A stretch of DNA of 35,729 nucleotides from a bacterium (GTDB lineage: Bacteria > ARS69), in NCBI GenBank assembly GCA_025774805.1, contig JALGZR010000028.1, positions 1-35,729 on the forward strand. The letters run 5' to 3'. The translations under genes were made by a program, and so were the position numbers. The notes beneath the pieces are model-generated. The model was not told the origin of the DNA and did no database searches. It worked only from the letters and a program-made list of their open reading frames with translations. The first letter of the stretch is position 1, and the number at the start of each line of letters is the position of its first letter. Positions 3,873 through 21,822 of this stretch are shown in pieces.

Positions 3873-4147
3873 GCCGGCTCCTCGGCACCCTGATTCGATG
3901 CCTCGGTCGGAGGTGCCCGTACTCTTCCGGCCGCCGGGGATCGCGTCAAGTCTTCCCCTCCCGCCGCCGGGTCCCGCGTTTTCCCTTGACTTCTGGTGGT
4001 GTTTCTTTCACCATGCCGCAAGCATTCTAGCTAACTCCTGAAGTTCCGGGCGCGGTCGAATTCAAACTCGAATTCGAACGAGTCCTGCCCCGGGGCTCGG
4101 CGGAAATCCTCGGGCCCGAAAGATGCCCGACGCGCCGGAGTCGTGCC
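3873..4147. promoter_or_regulatory. divergent promoter region with direct repeats
   Basis: A 275-base gap between divergent genes. On the minus strand a TTGACG -35-like hexamer (3944-3949) sits 17 bases from a weak -10-like site (3921-3926) ahead of the GT4 gene. On the plus strand TTGACT at 3986-3991 has only a poor -10 at 17 bases (4009-4014). The octamer TCGAATTC occurs twice in direct orientation at 4056-4063 and 4068-4075, a 12-base period, upstream of the WecA-like gene, and could be an operator. All are pattern matches only. Confidence 0.3.
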
Positions 4148-14634: not shown

Positions 14635-16248
14635 TCAGAACCGCCAGAAGAAGGACGTCTCCACTACGACGGTCCCGTCGTCGTCTTCCGGCACACCCCG
14701 CGCATTGCGCGACCAGCGATAGCCGACTCCCGACGAGGCACGAATCGTATCACGAGGAACCCACTCGGCGGTGGCCAGGACGGTAACGACGTGCTCCACC
14801 GGCTCATCCAGATCGAGCGTGGACCAGGGGTCCACCGGTACCTCGGGAGACCAGGCCTCTCCGAGAAATCCCCGCCCCCGGCGAGTCCAATCGAGGGTCA
14901 AGGTCGCCGACCAGTCGACGGCCGGATCGGCACGCGCCTCCGCACGAAGCCTCTCTGTATCCGGCCCCGCGACGTAGCCGAGTGGATCCCCGCTCAAAAG
15001 GAAGTCACGATCGTAGTAGGTCGCATACACGTAGCGGAGCACCTTGGTGAGCTCGAGCAACACGGAGGCCGGATGCCCCCGAACCGTCCTCGCGTGATGC
15101 AGACCGATCTGCCCGGCCATACGATTGGGCATCTTGGCGGTCTCGAAAGCGAGATCGTCGATCAGGACCTCGGCGTACATCCGCCAGCCCGTTCGGATCC
15201 TCCAATCGAGATCGCCTCCCACCATCACGTTGTTCCGGATCTCGATCGTCTCTTCCCGGTCCCCGTCCATCGCCTGAATCTTGTGAACGATCGTGTAGGG
15301 GATGAGATTGACCAGGTAGAGGAATCCGGGTGCTTCGGAATCGTAGCGAACGGCCTCGGAAAAACCGATCGAGAGATCCGGAGTGACGCGCCAGGTCACA
15401 CGGTGGGCCGCGAGGTAGTGGTTGTCGGGCTGAGAAAGCGGGGCCGAAAGCGCGGTCAGCTTCAGCCGCCCGCCGACCGACCCGGCAACTCGCAGAACGC
15501 CGTAGGCGGGGGCGATGTCCGAAAGCAGGAGCGTGCCCGAACGGCCGGGGCCCCATCGCGTCTTCGTGTAGCCGAGAAGAACTTCGACGTACCGGGTGGA
15601 CAGCGAGAAGTAGCTCTCGTCCGTGTCGACCAGAAGATTCTCGTTCTTGATGAGCGTGTCCTCGACCAATCGATCGGGACGCACACGCTGCACCCGGATC
15701 TCCGTCGTGGCGTAGAGACGGGGCTCCATCATCACCTCGAACTGGACGAAGCCTCCGCTGCCCGGGTCGAATCCCAGGTCGTCGAATCCCCCTCCGGAAG
15801 CGGAGAACCCGGCGCCGGGCAGAATGCGCACGGTCGACTCGGGACCCTCGAACTTCAACCGCGGCGGCGTCTCTCGAAAGGGGGTTCCCTCGTCGAGCCG
15901 CGTGGCTTCCAAGGCGAACTCCCGAAGCATTCGCCGAAAGACCGGATCGTTCCGGCAGGATAGACATGCCTTCGAGGCGCGAACCAGGGCAGACGCGATC
16001 TCGTGCCGGCTCCACGGTCGGGAAGCCAGGTCGAGCGAGTCGAGAATGTCTCGTGCCCAGAGGTTCTCCAGATCCACATAGGCGGGATGATCGGGAGGGA
16101 GGTACTCGAGCGGCACCGCCACCGAGCTCGCGACAGGGGCGCATTCGACCGCGGCGACGGCAAGTGCGGATACGAACAGACTTCGGAGGCAGCCCGTCCC
16201 TCTCCGGGGCCGGGCCCTCGTCGACGCGACTTCCGCACGCCGACCCAT
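14635..16248 (-). CDS. Wzi-like capsule assembly outer-membrane protein
   Basis: A 537-residue exported protein with an N-terminal signal segment (LRSLFVSALAVAAVECAPVASS) and a helical start YLPPDHPAYVDLENL. A predicted beta-rich body follows, with many alternating hydrophobic strands and a C-terminal aromatic residue (FFWRF), as in outer-membrane barrels. The stretch GYTKTRWGPGRSGTLLLS is the best mark of the Wzi capsule-assembly family. Wzi anchors or organises surface polysaccharide after export. The ATG is four bases after the Wza-type gene's stop, and the GGAGTGA overlapping that stop can serve as its ribosome site. It supports a capsule-like, cell-attached product. The family call is from motifs only. 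Confidence 0.8.
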   Translation of the reverse strand: MGRRAEVASTRARPRRGTGCLRSLFVSALAVAAVECAPVASSVAVPLEYLPPDHPAYVDLENLWARDILDSLDLASRPWSRHEIASALVRASKACLSCRNDPVFRRMLREFALEATRLDEGTPFRETPPRLKFEGPESTVRILPGAGFSASGGGFDDLGFDPGSGGFVQFEVMMEPRLYATTEIRVQRVRPDRLVEDTLIKNENLLVDTDESYFSLSTRYVEVLLGYTKTRWGPGRSGTLLLSDIAPAYGVLRVAGSVGGRLKLTALSAPLSQPDNHYLAAHRVTWRVTPDLSIGFSEAVRYDSEAPGFLYLVNLIPYTIVHKIQAMDGDREETIEIRNNVMVGGDLDWRIRTGWRMYAEVLIDDLAFETAKMPNRMAGQIGLHHARTVRGHPASVLLELTKVLRYVYATYYDRDFLLSGDPLGYVAGPDTERLRAEARADPAVDWSATLTLDWTRRGRGFLGEAWSPEVPVDPWSTLDLDEPVEHVVTVLATAEWVPRDTIRASSGVGYRWSRNARGVPEDDDGTVVVETSFFWRF

Positions 16249-16252
16249 CGTC

Positions 16253-18595
16253 TCACTCCGCGATTCGGTCGATGACGAGATACGTCGTGGCGAGGCTGGC
16301 CAGGATCGTGGTCACATCCTTGATCGTCTCTCCCCAATTCACTCCCTCGTCCTCGCCGCGCGCCGGAACGACGATCTCCGCCCCGGGCTTGACGCCGGGA
16401 TCAAACCAGAACCGCCGCACCTTGGCCGCCCGCCCGGTGGGGTAAATGATCGCCACGTCGCCCTTCTTGGCGGCGTCTCGGTACCCGCCGGCGCTGTCCA
16501 CGTAATAGCTGATTCCCTTTCCGCGCCGGTAGACGAGGTTCGTGGGGAAGTTGACGGCGCCGGAGACCTTCACGGTCGTCGGGCGTGGAGGAACCCGGAG
16601 GATGTCACCCTCCACCAGGACCACGTTGTCGTTGTCGTCACGGTCACGGAGGGCACGATCGAGATCGACCGAGATTTGACCGACGTCGTCCTTGGTTCTT
16701 ATGAGCTGGAAGCCCTCCGGGGTGGCGGTGTCAAGGAGACCGCCGGCGCGGTCGATCAGGTCCGCCAGCGTCTCCGTGGAGCTCCGCAGCGAGTACGTTC
16801 CCGGGAAGAGGACCTCTCCCTCGATCCGGACGTTCCGTTGGAGCCCCCAGTACGGCTTCGTCCGAACGAAGACGATGTCGTGGTTCTCCAGCTCGAAGGA
16901 GGGCAAGATGCCCGGGCGCGAGGGGAACTCGTCGGCGAACTCGACGTGGAAGGTCTCGGCGATTCGAGTGACGTTCGGGTTGTCGGGATGGGGCCGAGAG
17001 ACCTCTACCTCCGCGGTGTGGGCGTTCTCGAGGAACCCGCCGGCCTTCAGGAGCAGGTCCCCGAGGAGCATCCCCTCCGTGAGCTCGTACTGTCCCGGCT
17101 CTCGCACCGCGCCCTGGATCGCGACGGTCTCTCGCTCCCGGAGATCCCAGATCGAGAGAATCCTGATCTCGTCCCGGGGCCGCAGCAAGAGGTCGGCCTC
17201 CGGAATCCCCTCGAGCGCCCGATCCAGATCGAAGGTGATCGTCTCGCGGGAGAGGTCGGGGTGAGTACGGGAGAGCACCGCCCGATCGAGGAAGGCATCG
17301 TCCCGCGGGCCGTCGGCCCGGCGGACGACGTCCGAAACGCGCATCCCCTCGGTGAGCTCGTAAGTCCCGGGCCTCCGAACTTGACCGCTCACCTCGACGT
17401 AGTTGGTCCTGGAGTCGGTGATCGCTTGGACCCGGAGGTCATCGAGATCTTCCAGCTCGAACCGTCGGCCCTCCCGGAGAACCTCCAGGAGGCCGACGTC
17501 GATGACCATTCGGTCGTCCTCGATCGCATCTCTCTCCTCGGGGGGGACGATTCGCTCAATGGAGACGCGATCGAGGTACGCGGTCGCCGTGAGACCCCCC
17601 GCCATTCGAATGACGTCCCCGAGATCCTCCTCGGCGGTGAGCTCGTAAACCCCGGGGCGGACCACCTCACCCCGAACCGAGACGCTTCGTCCGAGCACCG
17701 GAACGAAGATCGTGTCGTCGTTCTCGAGACGGATGTCCCCCTCCTTGGTTCCCCGAAGGAGATAGTCATAGACGTCCAGAGCCGCGACCTGCCGGTTGCC
17801 CCGGATCACCCGGACGTCGCGCATGCTGCCGTTCGCGGCGGGTCCTCCCGCGTAGTAGAGAGCGTGGAACACCGTCGACGCGGCGGAAAGATCGTAGCCG
17901 CCGGGCCGACGGACCTCACCGACGACGAAGACCTTGATCGGGCGGAGCTTGCCGAGGGAGACGTCGAGAAATGTCGTCGGGGGACTGTTGGTGAATCCGG
18001 AGAACGCCTTTGACAGGCGGCCGCGCAGGCGGTCCTTGGCCTGAGTCAGGGTGAGACCCATGAGGCTCACCTGCCCCACGTCCGGCAGGAGGACGTTTCC
18101 CTCCCGGTTCACGACCTTCTCGAGGCGGAAGACGGCGTCGCCCCACACGTCGACGACGACGTCGTCCCCGGGTCCGATTCTGTAGTCGGGATCGATGGGA
18201 CCATAGAGGGGCGGAGCGAAGGACTCCGGGGCGAGCGCGAAGAGCTCCTGTCCGAACCGCGGAAGAACCGCCTCCCCGTCTTGCTCCGCGTCCTCAGGCC
18301 CCTCCGGATCCTCCAGAGGCGGCGGCGGCGGAGGCAGCGGTGGCTCCTCACCCGCCTCCAGAATCTCTCTCGCGGGCTCGGGGATCGGGGCGTTCTCGGA
18401 GATGGGAGCGGGGGCGATCTCGCCCGAGCTCCGGGCTCTCTCCAGGACCTCCGCGATCTGCTCCTCGCTCAGGCCCTGCTCCCGGAGTCGCCGTCGAACC
18501 GCCTCCTCACCGGGCTCGACGGCAGCCGCCGCGGCGCTGACAGCGAGAACCGCACCGAGGGCCGGGCCGATGAGTCTGCGAATCGGGGTTCTCAT
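16253..18595 (-). CDS. Wza-type polysaccharide export protein with six SLBB domains
   Basis: A 780-residue periplasmic/outer-membrane export protein, about twice the length of E. coli Wza. It starts with a signal peptide (RRLIGPALGAVLAVSAAAAA), a short helical segment LSEEQIAEVLERARSSG, and a proline-rich acidic linker. The export (PES) domain follows with YRIGPGDDVVVDVWGDAVF. Six SLBB repeats then follow, each recognised by a 'G.V..PG.Y.L' core: GEVRRPGGYDL, GEVVRPGVYEL, GQVRRPGTYEL, GAVREPGQYEL, GEVLFPGTYSL and a last divergent GAVNFPTNLVY. A hydrophobic helix near the C-terminus (TTILASLATTYLVI) may cross the outer membrane. There is no lipobox cysteine. ATG 18595 is the first start before a sensible signal peptide. 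It forms the channel for the glycan. Confidence 0.9.
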   Translation of the reverse strand: MRTPIRRLIGPALGAVLAVSAAAAAVEPGEEAVRRRLREQGLSEEQIAEVLERARSSGEIAPAPISENAPIPEPAREILEAGEEPPLPPPPPPLEDPEGPEDAEQDGEAVLPRFGQELFALAPESFAPPLYGPIDPDYRIGPGDDVVVDVWGDAVFRLEKVVNREGNVLLPDVGQVSLMGLTLTQAKDRLRGRLSKAFSGFTNSPPTTFLDVSLGKLRPIKVFVVGEVRRPGGYDLSAASTVFHALYYAGGPAANGSMRDVRVIRGNRQVAALDVYDYLLRGTKEGDIRLENDDTIFVPVLGRSVSVRGEVVRPGVYELTAEEDLGDVIRMAGGLTATAYLDRVSIERIVPPEERDAIEDDRMVIDVGLLEVLREGRRFELEDLDDLRVQAITDSRTNYVEVSGQVRRPGTYELTEGMRVSDVVRRADGPRDDAFLDRAVLSRTHPDLSRETITFDLDRALEGIPEADLLLRPRDEIRILSIWDLRERETVAIQGAVREPGQYELTEGMLLGDLLLKAGGFLENAHTAEVEVSRPHPDNPNVTRIAETFHVEFADEFPSRPGILPSFELENHDIVFVRTKPYWGLQRNVRIEGEVLFPGTYSLRSSTETLADLIDRAGGLLDTATPEGFQLIRTKDDVGQISVDLDRALRDRDDNDNVVLVEGDILRVPPRPTTVKVSGAVNFPTNLVYRRGKGISYYVDSAGGYRDAAKKGDVAIIYPTGRAAKVRRFWFDPGVKPGAEIVVPARGEDEGVNWGETIKDVTTILASLATTYLVIDRIAE

Positions 18596-18770
18596 GCCGC
18601 TCCGATCCCGGTTCCGGTGGGTCGTTGCCGCGCGTTCCTCGACATCCGGGCCCGGGAGCCGGTGCCCCGGGTGGCGCAGAATCCTCGCAAGGAAGCCCCG
18701 GATCCGCAACCATAGATCGGTATTTGCCAAGGAGGCCTGAACCCAAAACGGCCTCGAGCCGCTCCGGGTA

Positions 18771-18838
18771 CCCCCAAGGGGGCCTTGCGGGGGATGTGTG
18801 TGTGGGCCGGCCCCGAAGGCCGGGTTCGGGGACCCGGC
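18771..18838. terminator. GC-rich hairpin cluster, possible terminator
   Basis: In the 283-base gap between the DUF1972-type GT gene and the Wza-type gene there are stacked dyads: CCCCCAAGG (18771-18779) with CCTTGCGGGGG (18783-18793, two-base bulge), the 10-base palindrome GGGCCGGCCC (18804-18813), and GCCGGGT/ACCCGGC (18819-18825 and 18832-18838, 6-base loop). No T-run follows on the minus strand, so termination is only suggested by position after the stop at 18879. Confidence 0.35.
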
Positions 18839-18878
18839 TCCGACAGCCGGGACCGGGGAGTCGGTCGGCCGCCTCGCC

Positions 18879-20000
18879 TTACCCTCGTACGATCTCGTCA
18901 ATGATCTTCACGTAGTCGTCTACCACCCGGGTCCAGGTGAAACGGCCGAGAGCGACCTTCTGAATCGTCTCGCGCTCATCGACGGACCGAGCGCCCGATT
19001 CGAGCTCGCGGAGGATCCGAGCGAGGTCCTCCGGCGACCGGAAGTAGTGCCCGCGATCGCCCAGGACCTCCCGGTTGAACGGGTTGTCGTGGCTGATGAC
19101 GACGTTGCCGCAGCCGAGCGCCTCGAGGAGGGAGGGGTTGGTCCCTCCCACGCTGTGCCCGTGCAGATAGGCGGCACCGTGGTAGCGCAGGGCGAGGAGC
19201 TCCTCCGTATCGAAGAGCGGACCGATGAAGCACAGACGGGAGTCGCCGATCTCGGTCAGCTGCCGGCCGTAGGCGCTCACGTTGTGATCACCGACGATGA
19301 CGAGCCTTCTCCGGGAGCCCGACTCCAGGAAACCGCGGATGATCTCTTCGATGTGGTTCTCCGGCTCGATCCGACACACCACGGTGTAGTAGTCGCCGGG
19401 CTCGAGACTCCGGCGGGTCAGGGGATCGATCGGGGGCGGGGACTCGGCGACGTAGGTTCCGTACGGCACCGTCCAGCAGTGACGAATCCTCCCGTGGCGG
19501 GACTCCAGGTCGCGGCGGATCGCCTCCGCGTCGGCGATGACCCCGCTCGCGGTCACGAGGGCCCAGCTCTCCATGGTCTTCAGATAGGTCCGGCCGAGCC
19601 AGGACCACTTCGATCGTCTCCACTCGAGGCCGTCCATGTTCGCCAGAACGGGCGTGCCGAACAGTCGCGGGAGGAAGAAGGCCCAAGCCGTCCCGTATCC
19701 GAGCATGTACACGAGATCGTAACCCCGGAGGCAGCGCAGGAGGCTCCGGAGGTCGAACCAGACGGTGGTGAGCGGTCCGAGGGACGGCGACGCAAGGCGC
19801 CGAAGGGTCATGCCGCGGTAGGTCTCGACCGCGGACTGGCCCGGATCCCGATTGCAGATCACGGTGACGTCGATCCCCCGCGTGGCGAGACCGGCCCCCA
19901 CCTCCTCGGCGAATCGCTCGAAGCCGCCGTAGCGTGCCGGCACGCCGCGAGTCCCGAGGATGGCGAGCCGGATCGGGTCCGACGGATTGTTAGCCTGCAT
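18879..20000 (-). CDS. DUF1972/GT4 rhamnosyltransferase-like glycosyltransferase
   Basis: A 373-residue GT-B protein. The N-terminal domain LAILGTRGVPARYGGFERFAEE (12-33) and GYGTAWAFFLPRLFGTPVLANMDGLEWRRSKW (101-132 region) are the hallmark of the DUF1972 N-terminal domain joined to a GT4 domain, as in rhamnosyltransferases of capsule loci. The C-terminal domain has YLHGHSVGGTNPSLLEALGCGNVV (278-301), where the first Glu of EX7E is replaced (HSVGGTNPSLLEA keeps the second). The start ATG, with GGTGA four bases upstream, lies inside one arm of a perfect 23-base inverted repeat; no other start exists before the conserved core. It is 319 bases from the radical SAM gene, so it probably has its own promoter. 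Confidence 0.9.
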   Translation of the reverse strand: MQANNPSDPIRLAILGTRGVPARYGGFERFAEEVGAGLATRGIDVTVICNRDPGQSAVETYRGMTLRRLASPSLGPLTTVWFDLRSLLRCLRGYDLVYMLGYGTAWAFFLPRLFGTPVLANMDGLEWRRSKWSWLGRTYLKTMESWALVTASGVIADAEAIRRDLESRHGRIRHCWTVPYGTYVAESPPPIDPLTRRSLEPGDYYTVVCRIEPENHIEEIIRGFLESGSRRRLVIVGDHNVSAYGRQLTEIGDSRLCFIGPLFDTEELLALRYHGAAYLHGHSVGGTNPSLLEALGCGNVVISHDNPFNREVLGDRGHYFRSPEDLARILRELESGARSVDERETIQKVALGRFTWTRVVDDYVKIIDEIVRG

Positions 20001-20169
20001 ATCTCACCAGACTCGTCGCGAGGCCGCGGATAGGCGTGTCTGGCGAGGAGATGGGGCGCTTTCGCCCGAGGCGGGGCTGTAGCCCCGTCGCAGGGCGGAA
20101 GTGCCACAACGACGAAGCCAGGCGCGGCTTCGCCGCTGCCGCAGCAGAGTCTGGTGAGATATGCAGGCT
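19992..20169. repeat. 178-base inverted-repeat element with internal hairpins
   Basis: Two perfect 23-base arms in opposite orientation lie at 19992-20014 and 20147-20169. Between them are further hairpins: GGGCG/CGCCC (20054-20067), CGGGGCT/AGCCCCG (20072-20087) and GCGGC/GCCGC (20124-20136). This nested structure is like REP/MITE elements. Each arm holds GGTGAGAT followed by ATGCAGGCT pointing outward: the left arm supplies the ribosome site and start of the DUF1972-type GT gene, the right arm opens a 39-codon frame on the plus strand ending at 20280. No transposase is present. Whether it is multi-copy cannot be told from one window. Confidence 0.6.
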
Positions 20170-20319
20170 CGGCCTCACGCGTCCTGTCTCCTCCGGGCCG
20201 ACGCCTTCGGGCCCGAGTCGCTCCCGGCCCGGGATATCGGTCCAACCGATATCATCCACGGCCGGTACAGGGGAATCTAGCTCGGATCTCCCGAAGCGTC
20301 GCGCCGAGACGGGACGGGA
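20001..20319. other. 319-base gap: inverted-repeat element plus palindrome
   Basis: This gap holds most of the inverted-repeat element and, to its right, a 21-base palindrome at 20233-20253. No credible conserved protein is encoded; the 39-codon plus-strand frame from 20161 is unlike any family I know. The promoter of the GT gene at 18879-20000 should lie here, but no clear -35/-10 pair was found on the minus strand. Confidence 0.45.
20233..20253. promoter_or_regulatory. perfect 21-base palindrome, operator-like
   Basis: Arms GATATCGGT and ACCGATATC are separated by CCA. It lies between the stop of the radical SAM gene (20320) and the start of the next minus-strand gene (20000). It lacks a T-run on either side, so an operator bound by a dimeric regulator is more likely than a terminator. 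Confidence 0.4.
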
Positions 20320-21822
20320 CTACGCTCCGCTCTCCAGCCTCCGTGTGGGCCGCAACGGGTCCGCGCCCCCGACCGGCCGTTCCGTGGGACCCCGGATGAT
20401 CTGCAGCGCGACACGCGTCGAGGCCCCCAGACGGCGCTGCCGGAGCAGCCGCGCCCCCTGTCGCAGAAGGTAGCCCGGACGTGAGTAGAAGCGCCGATAT
20501 GCCCTCCGTACATACCGGTCGACCGTATCCCATTCCAGGGTGGGATGGTCATAGAGATTCCGGGCCGGGTTGTGAAAGTTGTAGTCGGCCCAATTCGTCG
20601 TTTTCAGCCGGTCCTTCCAGACGTGATAGAGCTCGGTCCCCGGCAGAGGAATCGTGATGTCGAACTTGGCGTAGTCGAGGGGGAGCGAGCACGCGAAGTC
20701 GATCGTGTCCTGCATCGACCGCTCGGTCTCTCCGGGGAGGGCCACCATGAAATACCCCATCACCGTGATTCCGGCCTCCTTCGCCCACCGCACCGCCTCG
20801 CGTCCGCGCTCCAGCGTCGCCCCTTTCTTCATCCGGATGAGAACGTCCCGGTTCCCCGTCTCGAGGCCGAATGCGACGAGGTGGAGACCCGCCCGGCGCG
20901 CGATGCGGAAGAACTCGGGAGAGACGTTCGCCACCCGAAGCCCGTTGCGACAGCACCACGGGAACCGCAACCCACGCTTCAGGATCTCCTCGCAGATGGC
21001 GATCGCGCGGTCCCCGTCGGTGGTGAAGCTGTCGTCCACGATCTCGATCTCCCGGAATCCGAGATCGAGGAGGTGCTCCATCTCGTCCACGACGCGCTTC
21101 GGGCTCTTTCCGCGCCACGTGATCCCGAACACTCCCTTCGTGCAGAAGACGCACCGGGCCAGACATCCCCGACTCGTCTCCATGAACCCCACCGGCGCTT
21201 CTTCGTAGAAGAGGCGGGAGATGCCTGCGTACTCCTCGAGGTCGTAGAGATCGTACGCGGGGAAGGGGAGACGATCGAGATCTCCGGCGGTGAGGTAGCC
21301 CTCGAACCGGGTCTTTCCGCCCCGTTTCTGTCTTCGGTGGACTGTGATCTCTCCGGTCCGCCGGTTCTTGTGCGCGACGTCCGGAATCTCGTCGAGGGGA
21401 ACCCCATCGGCGACGCGGACGACCGAGTCGTCGGCCTCTCCGATGCAGATGACGTCCATCTCGCTTTCGGCGAGGCACTCCTCCGGATAGCTCGTGGCGT
21501 GGACGCCCCCGCCGACGATCAGGGTCTCCGGAGCGAGTGCGCGCACCCGACCCGCGATTCGGAGCGCTTCGAAGTAGAGGGGCGTCTTGAAACCGAGCCC
21601 GATCAGCTCCGGATGGAACTCCCGAATCGCCTGCTCCACGGCGCGATCGTCATCGTCGGCCACCTGGAGGTCGAGGATCCGCACCTCGTGACCGCCCTGG
21701 CGGAGCGCGGCGCCGACCACGGCGAGGTTCAGCGGCGGGACGCACTCCTCGGTCTTCTTGAACTCGAACCTCGTGCCCCGGTACACGGACATCTCGGAGG
21801 GGTTGATGAGCAAGGATCTCAA
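20320..21822 (-). CDS. B12-binding-domain radical SAM protein
   Basis: A 500-residue protein with an N-terminal cobalamin-binding-like Rossmann domain (about 1-140: NLAVVGAALRQGGHEVRILDL, LIVGGGVHATSYPEE, ICIGEADDSVV) and a radical SAM core. The 4Fe-4S cluster motif CX3CX2C is Cys220, Cys224 and Cys227 in TSRGCLARCVFCTKG; the SAM-binding and barrel parts follow (EIEIVDDSFT, GLETGNRDVLIRMKKG, GYFMVALPGETERSM). The DXHXXG B12 histidine motif is not seen, so cobalamin may bind base-off or not at all. The start is TTG; GAGG lies 11 bases upstream. It could methylate or rearrange a sugar, lipid or cofactor; proximity to the polysaccharide locus is only suggestive. Confidence 0.85.
   Translation of the reverse strand: MRSLLINPSEMSVYRGTRFEFKKTEECVPPLNLAVVGAALRQGGHEVRILDLQVADDDDRAVEQAIREFHPELIGLGFKTPLYFEALRIAGRVRALAPETLIVGGGVHATSYPEECLAESEMDVICIGEADDSVVRVADGVPLDEIPDVAHKNRRTGEITVHRRQKRGGKTRFEGYLTAGDLDRLPFPAYDLYDLEEYAGISRLFYEEAPVGFMETSRGCLARCVFCTKGVFGITWRGKSPKRVVDEMEHLLDLGFREIEIVDDSFTTDGDRAIAICEEILKRGLRFPWCCRNGLRVANVSPEFFRIARRAGLHLVAFGLETGNRDVLIRMKKGATLERGREAVRWAKEAGITVMGYFMVALPGETERSMQDTIDFACSLPLDYAKFDITIPLPGTELYHVWKDRLKTTNWADYNFHNPARNLYDHPTLEWDTVDRYVRRAYRRFYSRPGYLLRQGARLLRQRRLGASTRVALQIIRGPTERPVGGADPLRPTRRLESGA

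Follow-up and report, generated by a model that had tools for sequence, protein, structure and literature searches.

A short inverted-repeat element with IS1380-type ends that probably replaces gene starts in frame

Why should the first possible start codon of a bacterial glycosyltransferase gene lie inside the arm of a perfect inverted repeat? The question arises in the window (the whole stretch of DNA that was analyzed, 35,729 nucleotides), for which an initial annotation had described 23-base inverted arms around a hairpin-rich core at 19992-20169, each arm with an outward-facing ribosome site and ATG. The left arm was said to provide the start of the glycosyltransferase gene. Two readings were offered: either the element has become part of a gene, or it can invert and swap the downstream reading frame.

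The arms are 23 nt each, 100% complementary and separated by 132 nt. The left terminal inverted repeat (19992..20014, minus strand) reads outward as GAGTCTGGTGAGATATGCAGGCT and has the same 21-nt end as an IS1380-family insertion sequence (IS). The right one (20147..20169) reads outward on the plus strand. GGTGAG-AT-ATG faces outward on both arms. On the left, a Shine-Dalgarno-like GGTGAG (20003..20008, minus strand) overlaps an in-frame TGA (20004-20006) and precedes the ATG of the glycosyltransferase (19998..20000, minus strand); on the right, GGTGAG and ATG span 20153..20163 on the plus strand. Next to the arms lie the conserved motifs CGTCGCGAGG (20014..20023) and CCGCAGCAGA (20139..20148), both common to several phyla. 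The core has an apical hairpin at 20071..20089, a place where elements of other phyla carry GGCGTA...TACGTCG. Folding of the 178-nt stretch gave z = -14.4 for the plus strand and -9.2 for the minus strand, and none of 200 shuffles folded as well. The arms, the hairpin-rich core and the outward signals thus stand as first described, while the limits were refined: alignment of 30 copies, together with paired copies elsewhere, places the whole element with its terminal 4-mers at 19990..20171 (182-bp class). These 4-mers (TTAG and CTCG) now differ and appear to have decayed from CTAG/CTAA, so that the putative duplication is no longer intact there. The right ATG does open the 39-codon frame noted earlier (20161..20280, plus strand, ending at 20278-20280), which shows no sign of being a gene. 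A scan of the element found no sigma-70 promoter or terminator. At 182 bp, with 23-bp arms and no long ORF inside, it has the size and coding content of a MITE.

A chance dyad was ruled out by the multiple copies in the host and by shuffling: the 22-nt arm pattern, with up to 3 mismatches allowed, did not occur in any of 100 shuffles of the window. The search of the host genome for further copies, which the initial annotation had proposed, returned many. In this genome (5.1 Mb, 284 contigs, 96% complete) we found 162+176 (338) arm matches with at most 3 mismatches, versus 1+2 (3) for a reversed-pattern control, and at least 40 near-full copies of the element at 89-100% identity. Counting over 144 stretches around arm matches (0.45 Mb of host sequence) gave 119 paired elements, of which 53 measure ~182 bp and 64 no more than 110 bp; sizes among other copies range from 50 to 290 bp. 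The outward consensus end in the host is CTGGTGAGANATGCAGGCTAG. Copies occur in either orientation beside unrelated genes, and an all-against-all BLASTP of the element loci revealed no recurrent neighbor gene. Short, bounded by terminal inverted repeats and multicopy at unrelated sites, the element has the MITE-like nature first suspected. Eight arm pairs stand head to head on a single common CTAG, an arrangement that fits CTAG as the target. The search between distant host arm pairs found no autonomous copy (contigs C154 and C143 hold only unrelated genes between solo arms), and the search for an empty paralogous site among the element loci gave only self matches or matches from one repeat copy to another. 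A class of 50-90 bp, consisting of nearly nothing but the two arms, matches the 182-bp class in frequency; an example is the 55-bp pair on contig C8 at about 95092-95146.

The ends themselves point to the family of transposons involved. In a Bryobacterales genome we found an intact IS of ~1.73 kb with the ends of the element, CTAGCCTGCATTTCTCACCAG on the left and CTGGTGAGATATCCGGGCTAG on the right. Its arms, at positions 1252 and 2966 of the locus, flank an ORF (1477-2940, 487 aa) that matches NF033539 transpos_IS1380 (E 3e-115) and DDE_Tnp_1_4 (E 8e-147). The first 21 nt of this IS are identical to the element ends in several phyla. Its right end lacks the ATG (ATATCC), so an ATG is not required at all such ends. 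The two IS copies in that genome are ~97% identical inside and unrelated outside. One is bounded by CTAG/CTAG and the other by CTAA/CTAA, the latter being a non-palindromic direct repeat of 4 bp. Among paired copies of all genomes pooled, 62 of 107 have CTAG on both sides, a count in which few ends are informative, since CTAG is its own reverse complement and only non-CTAG ends can tell. The direct repeats of the IS, together with the restoration of reading frames when flanks are joined (below), support a 4-bp duplication; two published IS1380 elements were captured with 4- and 5-bp repeats (PMC4133298). We searched 18 genomes, of which 16 bear the element, and found IS1380-type transposases (PF13701) in 9. 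In the host genome we found no intact IS1380 transposase, only a 113-codon IS1380 fragment, and present mobility of the element there is conjectural. Judged by its sequence, the element is a MITE that has IS1380-type ends and targets CTAR, and its ends and copies suggest that an IS1380 transposase moves it.

These ends bear directly on two other ways of explaining the repeat. If the arms recombined, the core would flip and the downstream frame would alternate, and perfect inverted arms are what such a switch would need. Identical arms, however, would present the same outward Shine-Dalgarno sequence and ATG to either neighbor in both states; moreover, there is no associated recombinase gene, hundreds of copies have unrelated flanks, and the ends fit a cut-and-paste IS1380-family (DDE) transposon rather than a site-specific invertase. 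The inversion first proposed is thus unsupported, and we regard it as extremely improbable. We assign an equally small probability to a repeat of the REP/REPIN type mobilized by a Y1 (RAYT) transposase, which would account for high-copy palindromes with no autonomous copy in the host. No Y1_Tnp (PF01797) was found in the 96%-complete host although control genomes give matches, and the ends fit an IS1380 transposon with 4-bp duplications. Y1 elements are not known to make such duplications.

The glycosyltransferase (18879..20000, minus strand, 373 aa) has profile matches to DUF1972 and Glyco_trans_4_4; its best NCBIfam model, Cps2T-like, scores below its cut-off. Because the arm carries an in-frame TGA two codons upstream of the ATG (GG-TGA-GAT-ATG), this ATG is indeed the first possible start of the gene, and the next start codon of the ORF is GTG20, within the conserved N-terminal fold. 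Several homologs have their own Met at the position of window residue 10, so residues 1-9 (MQANNPSDP) would be arm-derived and junction sequence. When the flanks of the element are joined, they read GGAGGAG-9 nt-GTGAGGC|CTAA|CAATCC, and the GTG shares the frame of the glycosyltransferase. This reconstruction provides a likely original GTG start, severed by the insertion (20176..20178, minus strand), with GGAGGAG (20188-20194) 9 nt upstream of it. The element was thus probably inserted ~7 nt beyond this putative native GTG, on its downstream side, and replaced the start of the gene. The surrounding region (14638-21660) also encodes a Wzi-like capsule assembly protein and an SLBB/Poly_export protein, which with the glycosyltransferase make it a surface-polysaccharide region; a radical SAM/B12-binding gene lies upstream of the glycosyltransferase on the same strand.

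To place this case among the other loci, we considered the genes that lead away from arms in the host. Their frame agrees with that of the arm ATG in 28 cases, versus 10 and 7 for the other two frames (p = 7e-5). The frame calls come from a codon model based on codon bias and starting 30 nt beyond the ATG. Elsewhere, the outward frames are 6:0:2 in the other genomes pooled and 4:3:5 in the VGTG genome, which shows no excess; the evidence on starts comes mostly from one genome, the host. Nearly all arm starts have an in-frame stop two codons upstream. When the flanks are joined with a single 4-mer, an in-frame ATG or GTG lies at most 9 codons upstream at 11 of 17 loci, including the glycosyltransferase of the window; the remaining two frames, taken as controls, have one in 2 of 34 cases (p = 1.5e-5). 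For instance, a glycosyltransferase on contig C105 is preceded at the joined site by ATGAAGC|CTAG, and an arginine-decarboxylase-like gene on contig C170 by GTGAGTGAGC|CTAG. Since joining restores an in-frame start, the native start appears to have been cut off and the arm ATG to stand in its place. Many arm-started proteins begin with MQA or MRA followed directly by a conserved domain, such as HMA (residues 8-67), OB_YrrC (18-90) or BPD_transp_1_N (12-112).

Random ORFs are long at 68% GC, and the coincidence of arms and starts could then be a by-product of gene calling in frames that are open by chance. We find this improbable: the 28:10:7 bias derives from codon usage that begins 30 nt past the ATG, native starts are restored at joined sites in the gene frame only, and the HMA, OB_YrrC and permease N-terminal domains start within ~20 residues of the arm ATG. 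These observations suggest actual initiation at the arm ATG. Start donation also shows in the statistics of further host loci, and the earlier proposal that the element is now part of a gene is supported. A RecD2-like helicase gene begins at a decayed arm, TGGGTGAGAGATGCCGGCC (position 3991 of locus L162, host C154:5990), so that arm-derived starts would outlast degeneration of the repeat.

The arms also coincide with the ends of genes. Among 116 genes that converge on a host arm, 75 have as their stop codon precisely the TAG within that arm's CTAG. The coding phase of converging genes is biased in the host (80:20:10, p = 4e-17) and in the VGTG genome (30:5:6, that is 30/41, p = 2e-7). CTAG beside coding sequence is a stop in 57 of 67 cases at arms versus 22 of 37 away from arms (p = 0.004). 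Because non-arm CTAG sites are also mostly stops, the stop bias is probably due mainly to target choice and selection against damaging insertions, rather than to the creation of new stops. A sigma-54-activator-like gene takes its TAG stop from the CTAG of a solo arm at about 2309-2330 of locus L162 (host C154:4314).

Taken together, we consider it highly probable that the element is a non-autonomous MITE with IS1380-family terminal inverted repeats, moved in trans into CTAG/CTAA and replacing gene starts in frame. In published work, IS1380 elements are over-represented in the spaces between co-directional genes (PMC9208149). A transposase acting in trans would insert the element at CTAR (CTAG/CTAA) and duplicate 4 bp. 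Inward, CTAG would give a TAG stop, and landing at a CTAG stop codon would keep the stop. Outward, the end would supply a Shine-Dalgarno sequence that overlaps TGA (GGTGA) and an ATG, 7 nt before the target tetranucleotide. An insertion landing in the first few codons in phase nCT-AGn would bring the new Shine-Dalgarno sequence and ATG in frame, and the gene would survive, its product altered at the N-terminus. Where a transcript spans both arms, these signals would lie inside a 23-bp duplex, and expression could be low unless there is an internal promoter; any effect of the element on expression is conjectural. A more tentative extension, which we think possible but doubtful, is that the ends were selected as a translation-neutral landing kit (stop inward; stop, Shine-Dalgarno and ATG outward), with the hairpin also hiding or exposing the Shine-Dalgarno sequence and ATG in read-through transcripts. 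If so, insertions at gene edges would be tolerated, which would lead to high copy number and to the resetting of many host starts.

The core raises a further question. Cores of six lineages are only ~50% identical, and yet a single column-consistent hairpin runs through them, with 90% of the cells paired and 32 of 59 pairs compensated on seven sequences. None of 500 shuffles reached the hairpin score, and slid controls gave 33-45%. The motifs CGTNGCGAGG and CCGCAGYAGA beside the arms are common to the lineages. Such a covarying hairpin in divergent cores, with common subterminal motifs, is what one may expect if the core and not only the ends were under selection, that is, if the element were a structured RNA, regulatory or otherwise non-coding, or a DNA hairpin that serves the host, spread by transposition. 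We consider this unlikely because the copies lie in either orientation at unrelated genes and most of the core is missing from the 64 short copies (≤110 bp), while correction of the palindrome by template switching could also yield compensated changes. Rfam gave nothing at the gathering threshold in the window, and two weak, unrelated matches in related loci. The conservation of the core may thus mean either that the element depends on the fold, whether in transposition or as RNA, or that the fold is renewed by palindrome correction.

The MITE with IS1380-type ends is not confined to the host. An exact scan of bacterial and archaeal genome contigs found the identical 21-nt end in genomes whose labels cover at least eight bacterial groups. 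Among the matches listed, the MAG labels, taken as deposited, are Deltaproteobacteria, Eisenbacteria, Gamma- and Alphaproteobacteria, Verrucomicrobiia, Nitrospira, Acidobacteria (including Bryobacterales) and Gemmatimonadetes. The number of exact arms per genome ranges from 2 to 235 in 15 end-bearing genomes. Four relatives from the host's own family all lack the end; outside that family, 4 of some 285 genomes have it. Viral contigs gave no exact match to it. This patchy distribution points to horizontal spread. Elements from Gammaproteobacteria (L092, L099, L063, L108 and L147) have the same ends and are 248-291 bp long, with a different, longer core that holds a CCGTAGCTA..GCTACG hairpin. 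In the Deltaproteobacteria MAG VGTG01, many contigs (L064-L158) begin or end inside a 186-bp element, and the repeat seems to break the assembly. The copies in this MAG are nearly identical, which suggests recent activity.

For about a dozen loci of one genome, the analysis documents how a transposon appears to have replaced native start codons in frame, and it describes one family of palindromic elements with a covarying core across distant phyla. The element would explain odd MQA/MRA N-termini and TAG stops near such repeats, and it warns against trusting homology-free start calls in their vicinity. In the open-access literature, to which the search extended, we found no description of IS1380-derived MITEs or of this end, a weak sign of novelty.

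Among known systems, IS1380-family insertion sequences (NF033539, PF13701) share with the element the 21-nt terminal repeat and the CTAR target, together with a 4-bp duplication that in the element is putative, whereas the element has no transposase gene, spans 50-290 bp and has an ATG at both ends (the intact IS has none at its right end). Rickettsia palindromic elements are palindromic repeats within protein-coding genes, inserted inside reading frames as an extra peptide. They likewise become part of genes, but the element described here gives start and stop signals at gene edges instead. piggyBac transposons also use a 4-bp palindromic target, but they are eukaryotic and use TTAA; IS1380 transposases serve as a distant prokaryotic outgroup of piggyBac (PMC10813416). 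Bacterial MITEs such as Correia/CREE, the TIMEs (PMC4133298) and MITEPye1 (PMC11578231) are likewise short, with terminal inverted repeats of a known IS or transposon family and a hairpin at the RNA level. Compared with those, the element has IS1380-type ends, is distributed far more widely among taxa, its core covarying, and shows a repeated, apparent replacement of start codons.
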